The notes under the pieces were generated by a model. The model made no database searches, was not told where the DNA came from, and saw only the letters and a list, made by a program, of their open reading frames with translations. This document shows, one piece after another, positions 3,295-45,263 of a stretch of DNA of 64,000 nt. The translations under genes and the position numbers were made by a program. The stretch comes from Moorella sp. Hama-1 (GTDB lineage Bacteria > Bacillota > DSM-521 > Neomoorellales > Neomoorellaceae): assembly GCF_023734095.1 (NCBI RefSeq), contig NZ_AP024620.1, forward strand, positions 2,724,501 through 2,788,500. The letters run 5' to 3'. The first letter of the stretch is position 1. Every line of letters begins with the position of its first letter.

Positions 3295-3539
3295 AGGTTT
3301 CCGGCTTTTCCATCTACGCTAGCTACGCTAGTTCTAACCTCACCGGGCTACGAACCCTTTGATCCCTACTACTTCATCAAGGTGCGCTCGCATTTTCCCT
3401 TGCACATCCGGGGCAATTCTTCATAATACACTGATATTTTTGCTCTATTTTCTTTTTACACCGGCCGGCCTTGCCACCCGGACGCCGGGATAGTAAGATA
3501 GATAGGTAAAATATGCTATGCGCTCTGGAGGCGATCCCC

Positions 3540-42536: not shown

Positions 42537-42808
42537 TAACCTTTTCAGTTCTATATCATTCATAGAACGTTAATTCCCTCCCGGCTGATATTTTGGTAAA
42601 AAGGCCCGGCTTGAAAGGAAGGTGATTGAAATTCCTTGATATCACATATCAGCGGGATTACCGAGACATCCTTATGTAAGCTAATTTCATAAGCTTCGTC
42701 GATAATAGCTTCACGAGTTTTCTCCTTTATTATTACCCTACTTGATTATTACCCTACTTGCCCTTCCGCGGCATCTATGTTATATACTAAAAGGTAACAG
42801 TTGAATAT
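42537..42808. other. Intergenic region before the pab leader
   Basis: About 270 bp with no gene. Contains an imperfect direct repeat around 42730-42762 (TTATTACCCTACTTG-type, twice). Confidence 0.5.
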
Positions 42809-42888
42809 GAGTTAAGGTTAGCCGCATAGTTCCGGCGAGATGAGGCGAGATAAGGATAGATGAGACGACTCGGAGTTTTTGGGGTGAG
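42809..42888 (+). promoter_or_regulatory. Probable TRAP-binding site in the pabB leader
   Basis: A run of GAG/TAG triplets: starts at 42809, 42819, 42827, 42837, 42842, 42847, 42857, 42862, 42873 and 42886, with an AAG at 42852. From 42837 to 42862 the spacing is exactly 5 nt, the spacing used by the tryptophan-sensing TRAP ring (MtrB). A terminator follows at once. In Bacillus the folate operon carries a TRAP site because it encodes the shared amidotransferase. The role here is inferred. Confidence 0.7.
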
Positions 42889-42917
42889 GACCAGCGGGAT
42901 TCGTGCTGGTTTTTTTG
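42889..42917 (+). terminator. Leader terminator before pabB
   Basis: ACCAGC pairs with GCTGGT around a GGGATTCGT loop and is followed by seven Ts. It lies between the triplet repeats and pabB, so it is probably an attenuator. Confidence 0.8.
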
Positions 42918-42997
42918 TTATCCTTTAAACCTGTAAACCTGCGCCCGGGCGCGTCACACCGCGCAACCTTTGTCCAACTCACTGGAGGCATGATATA

Positions 42998-44407
42998 TTG
43001 CTGCCCATCGTCACTGAAATCAAGGCCCCTGCCGATCCGGAAGCCCTTTATCTCACTCTGACCAGCGGCCGAGCAAACAGCTTTTTGCTGGAGAGCGCCC
43101 TCTTGCACTCCCGTTTGGGCCGCTACTCCTTCCTGGGCGGCGACCCTTTCCTGGTCCTTAAAACCAGGGGCCATCAGGCCCTCCTCTACCGGCCCGGCGG
43201 CGTAACTAAAACGATTACCGGCAACCCCTGGGATATTATCCGCTCCCTCCTGGCCCGTTACCGCTTACCGCGGCAGGAGCAACCCATCCCTTTTACCGGG
43301 GGTGCCGTCGGTTGCCTGGCCTATGACCTGGGCCGTTATATAGAAAAGATACCGGCATGGGCCGCCGACGACCTGCCCTTCCCGGAGGGCTACCTGGCTT
43401 TCTATGATACCATCGTAGCCATTGACCACCAGGAAGAAAAGGTCTATCTGGTCGCCAACGGTTTCCCGGACACCGGCCCGGCGGCAGAAAAAAAGGCCCT
43501 GGCCAGGATCAAAGAACTTGCCCCGCGCCTGGAAGGGACCAGGTCCCCGGAACCCCCGGCCGGCCTTGACGGCGAAAAGCCGCCCGTTACCTCCCTGTTT
43601 ACCCGGGAAGCTTACTGCCGGGCCGCCGCCAGGGCCAGGGAGTATATCGCCGCCGGGGATATTTTTGAAGTTAACTTGTCCCAGCGCCTGCAGGCGCCCC
43701 TGGCTATGGAGCCCTGGGAGCTATACCGCCGCCTGCGGCGGGTCAACCCGGCGCCCTTCGCCGCCTACCTCCCTTTAAAAGAAGGGGCCATAGCCAGCGC
43801 ATCGCCGGAAAGGTTCTTGCAGGTAAGCCAGGGGAAGGTAGAAACCCGGCCCATCAAGGGCACCCGACGCCGGGGAAACAGCCCGGAAGAAGATCAAGCT
43901 CTGCGGCAGGAGTTATGGCAAAGCGCTAAGGACCGGGCCGAGCTGGTAATGATCATCGACCTGGAGAGGAACGACCTGGGCCGGGTCTGCCAGGCTGGAT
44001 CGGTGCAGGTACCGGAGCTTTTCGTCCTGGAGGAGTACGCCACCGTTTTCCACCTGGTAAGCACCGTCACCGGCGTCCTGGAACCGGGAAGGGATATGGT
44101 GGACCTCTGGCGGGCCACCTTCCCTGGCGGTTCCATCACCGGGGCACCAAAGGTACGTTCCATGGAAATCATCGAAGAACTGGAGCCCGTACGACGCAGC
44201 GTTTACACCGGCGCTATCGGCTACCTGGGGTTTGACGGGGAAGCCGACTGGAATATTGTCATCCGGACCTTCCTTCTCGCCGGCGGACAGGCCTATTTCC
44301 AGGTCGGCGGCGCCGTGACGGCCGACTCCCAACCCCTCCTTGAATACCAGGAGACTCTAGACAAAGCCCGCGGCTTGATCGCGGCTTTACATGGAGGAAA
44401 AGTATAA
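42998..44407 (+). CDS. pabB: Aminodeoxychorismate synthase component I
   Basis: 469 residues of the chorismate-binding family. The key PIKGT motif in TRPIKGTRRRGN marks it as PabB (anthranilate synthase TrpE has PIAGT). Other marks are SASPERFL, ELVMIIDLERNDLGRVC, and FPGGSITGAPKVRSMEII. It converts chorismate to aminodeoxychorismate for folate. No glutamine amidotransferase subunit is encoded beside it, so it probably borrows TrpG/PabA from elsewhere. TTG 42998 has GGAGG 9 nt upstream. Confidence 0.94.
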   Translation: MLPIVTEIKAPADPEALYLTLTSGRANSFLLESALLHSRLGRYSFLGGDPFLVLKTRGHQALLYRPGGVTKTITGNPWDIIRSLLARYRLPRQEQPIPFTGGAVGCLAYDLGRYIEKIPAWAADDLPFPEGYLAFYDTIVAIDHQEEKVYLVANGFPDTGPAAEKKALARIKELAPRLEGTRSPEPPAGLDGEKPPVTSLFTREAYCRAAARAREYIAAGDIFEVNLSQRLQAPLAMEPWELYRRLRRVNPAPFAAYLPLKEGAIASASPERFLQVSQGKVETRPIKGTRRRGNSPEEDQALRQELWQSAKDRAELVMIIDLERNDLGRVCQAGSVQVPELFVLEEYATVFHLVSTVTGVLEPGRDMVDLWRATFPGGSITGAPKVRSMEIIEELEPVRRSVYTGAIGYLGFDGEADWNIVIRTFLLAGGQAYFQVGGAVTADSQPLLEYQETLDKARGLIAALHGGKV

Positions 44408-44408
44408 A

Positions 44409-45263
44409 ATGACAGGATCGGTTGTCTATTTAAATGGCTCCCTGCACCCCACCGCCGTAGCCGGTATCGACCCGGCCGCTCCCGGTTTTCTGTATGGGGC
44501 CGGACTCTTTGAGACCATTCGCATAGAAAATAGCCGGCTCCTGTTTCTCAATGAACACCTGGAACGCCTTACCAGCAGTGCTGGGCGCCTAGGCTGGCCG
44601 GCACCGGAAAAAGAGACCATCCCTGCCGCCCTCCTGGCGGCCATCGCCGCCAAGGGGGTAACCACCGGCCGCGCCCGCCTTAATTTTTTTCAGGGCCGGG
44701 AAGGCTTTAACCTGCTCCTGGCGGTAGATGACGGCCTGCCCTATACCTCCCAAGACTACCGCCGAGGCTGCCAGGCGGCCATTGTGAGCATACCCCGCAA
44801 CCAGCGTTCCCCCCTGGCCGGCCTGAAAACCATGAACTACCTGGAAAACCTCCTGGCCCTGGCTGAGGCCCGGGCAAAGGGCGCCCAGGAGGCTCTTCTG
44901 TTGAACCTGGATGGTTACCTGGCCGAGGGTAGCCGCAGCAATCTTTTTATCGTTTGTGACGACATCCTCTATACCCCCGATCTGGCCAGCGGCCCCCTGC
45001 CCGGCCTGGCCCGCGCCCGGGTCCTAAAAATAGCTGCCGGCCTGGGCCTGACGGTTAAAGAAGAACCTTTACCGCCAGGGGCGCTCGCTACAGCAAAGGA
45101 AGCCTTCCTGACCAACAGCCTGATGGAGATCCTCCCCCTGACGCTAGTAGACGGTCGGCCCGTTGGTAATGGCCGCCCCGGACCGGTGACGGCCCTGCTC
45201 CAGGCCCGTTACCAGGAGGAAAAGGCTGCTGCCCGGGGTAAAAAAACTCCTACCACACCATAG
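44409..45263 (+). CDS. pabC: Aminodeoxychorismate lyase (class IV aminotransferase)
   Basis: 284 residues of the class IV PLP fold. Marks are the LYGAGLFETIRI start, Lys in AGLKTMNYLENLLAL, and the GYLAEGSRSNLFIV loop. It releases pyruvate to give p-aminobenzoate. ATG 44409 follows pabB after 1 nt and has GGAGGA upstream, so the pair is translationally linked; an upstream in-frame ATG (44391) lies within pabB and its ribosome binding region. A branched-chain or D-amino-acid aminotransferase is less likely given the neighbour. Confidence 0.9.
   Translation: MTGSVVYLNGSLHPTAVAGIDPAAPGFLYGAGLFETIRIENSRLLFLNEHLERLTSSAGRLGWPAPEKETIPAALLAAIAAKGVTTGRARLNFFQGREGFNLLLAVDDGLPYTSQDYRRGCQAAIVSIPRNQRSPLAGLKTMNYLENLLALAEARAKGAQEALLLNLDGYLAEGSRSNLFIVCDDILYTPDLASGPLPGLARARVLKIAAGLGLTVKEEPLPPGALATAKEAFLTNSLMEILPLTLVDGRPVGNGRPGPVTALLQARYQEEKAAARGKKTPTTP

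Follow-up and report, generated by a model that had tools for sequence, protein, structure and literature searches.

The pabB-pabC locus and its leader

The window, by which we mean the whole 64,000-nucleotide stretch of Moorella sp. Hama-1 DNA that was analyzed (G000:C1:2724501-2788500, in a genome of 3.32 Mb), carries on its forward strand a gene for aminodeoxychorismate synthase component I (pabB, 42998..44407, TTG start, 469 aa). The protein scored 350.6 bits against TIGR00553 (cut-off 328.4) and stayed below the cut-offs of the trpE models. It contains PIKGT and TrpE of the same genome contains PIAGT, a difference that we take to separate the two enzymes. PabB is 80-82% identical to its counterparts in M. 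thermoacetica DSM 21394, M. sulfitireducens and M. stamsii. An overlapping gene on the same strand (44391..45263) encodes a 290-aa class IV aminotransferase (PF01063); it reached no pabC equivalog cut-off and is called pabC-like by its context. A previous reading made from the sequence alone had pointed out that PabB has no local amidotransferase partner, and indeed no PabA gene lies next to pabB here. Because of this, and because the trp operon of the same genome encodes TrpG after TrpE, it is plausible that PabB shares TrpG with anthranilate synthase. As a general rationale for tryptophan control, sharing fails, since such an array, in most of the related leaders that have it, stands ahead of an operon with its own pabA.

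A probable sigma-A promoter, TTGCCC-17-TATATA, was recognized by consensus at 42758..42786 (+), and TTG(C/T)C(C/T), a 17-nt spacer and TAT... occur at the same place in all eight leaders of the genus. A pattern scan for promoters missed this site, its rule demanding T at position 6, and gave an alternative at 42970-42999. The leader ends in an intrinsic terminator, GACCAGC-loop-GCUGGUU followed by a U run (42889..42916, +), which was supported by alignment covariation, direct reading and a terminator scan that placed it at 42886-42914 with the T run up to 42916. As the earlier reading had stated, it comes right after the triplets. Fold programs gave the terminator as the most stable state; the stability of the window leader was not above that of shuffled sequences (z 0.17), and minimum-free-energy folding of the leader was uninformative.

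Positions 42809-42917 contain exactly ten GAG/TAG triplets (42809, 42819, 42827, 42837, 42842, 42847, 42857, 42862, 42873 and 42886), in full agreement with the earlier count. They form two blocks. In the 5' block (42809..42829, +), an AAG at 42814 completes a 5-nt grid with 42809 and 42819, and the TAG at 42827 is flanked by linkers of 5 and 7 nt. The main block (42837..42864, +) fills the six slots of the grid from 42837 to 42862 as GAG-GAG-GAG-AAG-TAG-GAG with 2-nt linkers; it was identified by chain score, direct reading and a genome-wide pattern. GAC-UCG-GAG (42867..42875, +), a non-canonical slot and the last triplet (GAG 42873-42875), prolongs the array through linkers of 2 and 3 nt into the loop of a conserved helix, S1, which is described below. 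The array departs from the ideal in three linkers (longer, or off the grid) and in three slots, two with AAG and one with GAC; the 10-triplet chain is accompanied by the GAC and GAG slots. The tenth triplet, GAG at 42886, most likely serves as the 3' strand of S1 rather than as a TRAP site. According to one report, at least seven triplets suffice for stable TRAP binding (PMC4027176).

The array was evaluated with a triplet-chain score of our own design (GAG 1, TAG 0.9, AAG 0.35, off-grid spacing penalized), the weights and gap penalties of which were chosen by us. The pab leader scored 6.80 with 10 triplets, a value reached by none of 2000 dinucleotide shuffles (mean 2.51, sd 0.76). On both strands of the 64-kb window only two peaks reached 4.0, namely the pab leader, which was the best, and a peak of 4.75 at 3341 on the minus strand. 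The proposed likeness to TRAP-binding sites was borne out to this extent, and we regard the triplets as candidate sites on the grounds of their sequence.

TRAP and its arrays in the genus

The genome encodes TRAP (mtrB, PF02081, 137.1 bits, G000:C1:2276152-2276352:-), as had been suggested as a check, and the protein matches solved TRAP chains, e.g. 1c9s at E 3.4e-31. PF02081 was found in 10 of the 11 genomes of the genus, the missing one being 58% complete. The other check named was for the same kind of repeats before the trp operon, and arrays do lie upstream of trpE in 11/11 genomes (0/500 shuffles in each). We then scanned the Hama-1 genome with a pattern of five (G/T)AG triplets at 5-nt intervals, tolerating one mismatch, and used the reversed pattern as control. 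There were six matches, compared with 0 forward and 1 reverse for the control: two overlapping ones in the pab leader, one in the trp leader, one in a trpP leader and two at or within ORF ends. The last two have no terminator and were taken as chance. The trpP array (L208, G000:C1:2709978-2710000:-) lies outside the window, before a TrpP-family gene (PF17099, 35.1 bits against a cut-off of 27.2). By eye, L208 has a promoter and a terminator, and downstream the TrpP-family ECF substrate component is followed by an ECF ATPase. This arrangement suggests that TRAP may control tryptophan uptake at the level of transcription.

PabB at 80% identity or more was present in 7/11 genomes of the genus, and an eighth (G003) retains a decayed piece with in-frame stops. 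The leader motif CGACTCGGAGNTTTTGGGG, with 2 mismatches allowed, occurred once in each of these eight genomes and in none of the other three, so that the leader stands upstream of 7/7 intact pabB genes and of the decayed one. In G003 (locus L029, G003:C1:66470-66887) the leader has lost its terminator by deletion, and TrpE is retained in the genome. No PabB-type gene was found in G002 (99% complete), G004 or G006 (84% and 58%).

Across these leaders the terminator-proximal part is almost invariant and the array drifts. The array was not equaled by any of 2000 shuffles in G000, G010, G001 and G009; it was marginal in G005, G007 and G008 (33, 45 and 55 of 2000 shuffles, respectively) and not significant before the decayed pabB of G003 (519/2000). 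The earlier reading had named two refuting outcomes, the absence of a TRAP homologue and poor conservation of the triplet spacing in related strains. Its central claim withstood both, TRAP being encoded and the leader standing before every intact pabB, but array strength is uneven, with three genomes marginal. The four weak arrays are what would be expected of a purine-rich leader with chance triplets ahead of an ordinary unregulated terminator. We consider this explanation very unlikely in view of the shuffle tests, the trp and trpP arrays, and two observations given below, the co-occurrence with TRAP and the loss of arrays together with the loop triplet.

A conserved RNA element next to the terminator

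The reading of this leader as a TRAP attenuator was well supported by the array, the TRAP gene and the trp arrays; it had overlooked a conserved RNA element just upstream of the terminator. This element of about 30 nt, GACGACUCGGAG-N-GGGGUGAGN-ACCAG, takes the triplets into its 5' side and is abutted by the terminator at its 3' side. Element and terminator together (42864..42916, +) were described by alignment A2 and by model R1, which scored 71.4 bits in the Hama-1 genome. A search of Rfam 15 gave no match at E <= 1 for the window leader or for four array-less loci. The segment GGGGUGAGNACC bears what we take to be a superficial resemblance to the T-box motif; a T-box was rejected, there being no stem I or specifier region, a leader of <90 nt and no Rfam match. 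A literature search returned no paper that places TRAP at a pab leader or describes the element, nothing on TRAP with Moorella, and nothing combining TRAP, tryptophan, attenuation and the pab operon; most subscription journals are outside its coverage, so that absence is unproven.

We examined 80 loci that encode PabB relatives (651,424 bases in all), and R1 found the element in 28 of them at E <= 3.1e-13; 26 of these are model-building members or near copies and do not form an independent test. Model R2 added one locus, L043, with a variant element read by eye. The array scan of both strands of the same loci gave 15 peaks of at least 4.5, of which 12 lie just upstream of the element and three (L113, L107 and L081) overlap ORFs. 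Most operons at these loci are pabA-pabB-pabC. In L058, L111, L131 and L136 the same leader precedes pabA-X-pabB, in which X looks by eye like DAHP synthase; if so, early aromatic synthesis would come under the same switch.

In 398 genomes of the phylum, R1 gave 33 matches at E <= 4.2e-8, and 39 element-bearing genomes were counted once the matches of R2, the model for array-less copies, had been added and the sequences read. A pabA or pabB gene lies within 1.5 kb downstream in 29/30 loci checked, the exception being G084 at a contig end. Six weak R1 matches (<=30 bits) were read. Those in G312 and G311 are real array-less elements, but the other four (G191, G171:C53, G080 and G272) proved to be terminators of no relation. 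Nine weak matches of R2 were read as well, and six are unrelated. The remaining three, L203 (G196), L204 (G070) and L197 (G118), are trpE-like genes preceded by strong TRAP arrays of 7-11 triplets, with terminators that partly resemble the pab terminator.

To describe pairing and arrays, 53 distinct copies of the element were collected. Helix S1 joins CUC at 42869..42871 (+) to GAG at 42886..42888 (+). Its first pair is C-G in 52 copies and A-G in 1, its second U-A in 33 and G-C in 20, and its third C-G in all 53. S1 thus switches between CUC:GAG and CGC:GCG with no mismatch in the middle pair, a result equaled by none of 10000 shuffles, although the relatedness of the sequences makes such P-values optimistic. 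The G-C state is not confined to one form of the element, for it occurs also in L045, which is otherwise like the copies with U-A. Covariation was seen as well in the terminator pair abutting S1 (29:51), as G-U, A-U, G-C and C-G.

A second helix, S2, is proposed between UGG at 42880..42882 (+) and CCA at 42891-42893. The copies speak for it less clearly. Its U-A position pairs in 44/53 and fails in 9 (1626/10000 shuffles as good), and the next outer pair, present in 42/53, is uninformative. The outermost pair, which alone favors S2, forms in 21/53 overall (0/10000 shuffles as good) and in 16/20 of the CGC subtype (288/10000). By hypothesis, S2 would cross S1 and hold the 5' arm of the terminator, forming an H-type pseudoknot antiterminator. 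The helix that covaries, S1, overlaps the array; support is weak for S2, the helix by which the terminator would be excluded. Other pairings were discarded. The CYGAG triplets on the 5' side pair well with CUCGG in many CUC-type leaders, by eye, but this pairing is lost where S1 is CGC:GCG, and we therefore read them as TRAP triplets only. An ACUC:GGGU helix proposed by RNAalifold is incompatible with the CGC variants, and GGU:ACC as the second helix is broken by the GGGA variants.

Several copies share a reading frame that includes a Trp codon (TTRSFWGEDQ or RTRNYWDANQ), as a leader-peptide attenuator depending on ribosome stalling would require. This explanation was rejected as scarcely credible: the two halves are separated by a spacer whose length changes in steps of one nucleotide and not of three, the position 5' of GGGG changes from T to C and so turns W into R, and, by eye, the window leader has no in-frame start codon past the last stop.

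Arrays (score of at least 2.0) precede 42 of the 53 copies, and 11 copies have no triplets. With 300 shuffles each, 40/42 arrays gave P <= 0.05 (the exceptions being L102 and L072) and 29/42 gave P <= 0.01. In the array copies the triplet directly before GAC is GAG in 37, TAG in 2, AAG in 1 and CAG in 1, with one out of register, and the S1 loop holds (G/T)AG in 40/42 and CAG in 2. In the 11 array-less copies the loop lacks (G/T)AG in 8 and has TAG shifted by at least one position in 3. All 33 CUC-type copies have arrays, as do 9/20 of the CGC type. TRAP was found in 27/27 sampled genomes with array-bearing elements versus 199/398 overall, and in 10/12 with array-less elements, where it was not detectable in G311 and G393. 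Among the named genomes 27/28 have TRAP, and the missing one (L058) is a 1.6-Mb MAG. These counts are uncorrected for kinship of the genomes.

S1, the terminator and the GGGA/GCG core are all retained in the array-less copies, which stand before pabA or pabB; an example is GGACGCUAAUAGCUGGGAUGCGAACCAGC, immediately 5' of pabB in G171. By eye, the -10 box and the element are only some 20 nt apart in G311 and G171. In one family (f29), 8 of 18 leaders lack TRAP triplets and have instead a partly conserved stretch, e.g. GACACCUCGGGGCAG, before the element (L141, L142, L145, L156, L157, L158, L159 and others). L160 and L161 are array-less and carry a strong GC hairpin of the GCGGGC...GCCCGC type directly before GGGACGC.

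A fold kept in related leaders that have no TRAP sites hints at a second sensor. The element may itself be an independent sensor, acting as a riboswitch-like pseudoknot or bound by a protein other than TRAP, with TRAP as an added input in some lineages. We regard this as a serious alternative, though less likely than not, because of the marginal arrays, the array-less copies, the invariance of the element, the weak S2, the position of S1 and the genomes without TRAP. Retention of S1, core and terminator in 11/53 copies, the two genomes without detectable TRAP, the short distance to the -10 box and the lack of an Rfam match are all in its favor. However, the candidate has no assigned ligand or partner, TRAP is still present in 10/12 sampled genomes with array-less elements, and antiterminator/terminator mechanics alone could account for the conservation. 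In its evolutionary form, which we hold to be possible at the same tentative level, the 30-nt element would be a pseudoknot sensor of Bacillota pab operons, TRAP-free in some lineages, to which the array was fused in Moorella and its relatives. The final triplets would pass through S1 and its loop, and a single fold would respond to two signals or would have exchanged one master for another.

Proposed control of pabB-pabC by TRAP

We favor, with reasonable confidence, a TRAP-controlled transcription attenuator for pabB-pabC that is built on the conserved pseudoknot-like element. Without tryptophan, the element upstream of the terminator would fold through S1 (CUC with GAG) and S2 (UGG with CCA). 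The two helices together would serve as the antiterminator; the 5' arm of the terminator would be held, and RNA polymerase would continue into pabB-pabC. When tryptophan is available, TRAP would wrap the triplets, including KAG-AC-GAC-UCG-KAG at 42862-42875, which comprises the 5' strand and loop of S1. Folding of the element would then be blocked, the terminator would form and pabB-pabC would be turned down. The array, the terminator, the TRAP gene, the trp and trpP arrays, the conservation, and the covariation of S1 and of the terminator are direct results of sequence analysis. We infer TRAP binding, the role of S1 plus S2 and the sign of the response from these patterns, and plentiful tryptophan probably turns pabB-pabC down in Moorella sp. 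Hama-1.

The sign could be the opposite. S1 abuts the terminator directly, and S1 alone need not oppose termination. If it were a pro-terminator hairpin stacked on the terminator, TRAP would break it and pab expression would rise with plentiful tryptophan. That the end of S1 is the start of the terminator stem and that the abutting pair 29:51 covaries fit such activation, which we nevertheless judge improbable: the intrinsic terminator is complete without S1, and the known TRAP targets, as far as they are covered in PMC3913778, are repressed.

The trp leader of B. subtilis has an A/B antiterminator and 11 repeats (PMC3913778). The pab leader resembles it in having an array of (G/U)AG triplets, most of them 2-3 nt apart, and an intrinsic terminator downstream, in a genome that encodes TRAP. 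It differs in that pabB-pabC is the controlled operon, in that an almost unvarying element with a CUC:GAG helix is joined to the terminator, and in that there is no conserved long antiterminator hairpin within the array. The trp leaders of the genus look like the classical type, with GAGCC(U)GG against CCAGGGCUC, by eye.

In B. subtilis, trpG is repressed by TRAP. Reportedly, this control of trpG (pabA) was described by Yang et al. in 1995 as a block of trpG translation inside the folate operon. TRAP would thus act on a p-aminobenzoate operon in both cases; here, unlike in trpG control, a transcription attenuator would stand ahead of the first gene, pabB. TRAP control of trpP in B. subtilis is translational. 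The third array of the Hama-1 genome also precedes a TrpP-family gene (PF17099), and here an apparent intrinsic terminator follows, by eye. The preQ1-I riboswitch is a small H-type pseudoknot. Our element is similar in that it is proposed to be a pseudoknot of about 30 nt whose 3' strand is the 5' arm of the terminator, but it has no Rfam sequence match and its second helix is weakly supported.

If the favored mechanism is correct, acetogens, sulfate reducers and related bacteria would use TRAP to attenuate transcription at the start of their pab operons and so to control the synthesis of a folate precursor, and the TRAP regulon of these bacteria would widen to trp, trpP-type transport and pab. 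The fold is a compact RNA that occurs with and without the array, and comparing the two forms could reveal how an array bound by a protein comes to be joined to an RNA switch. The array-less form would be an orphan RNA, the trigger of which can be sought directly.
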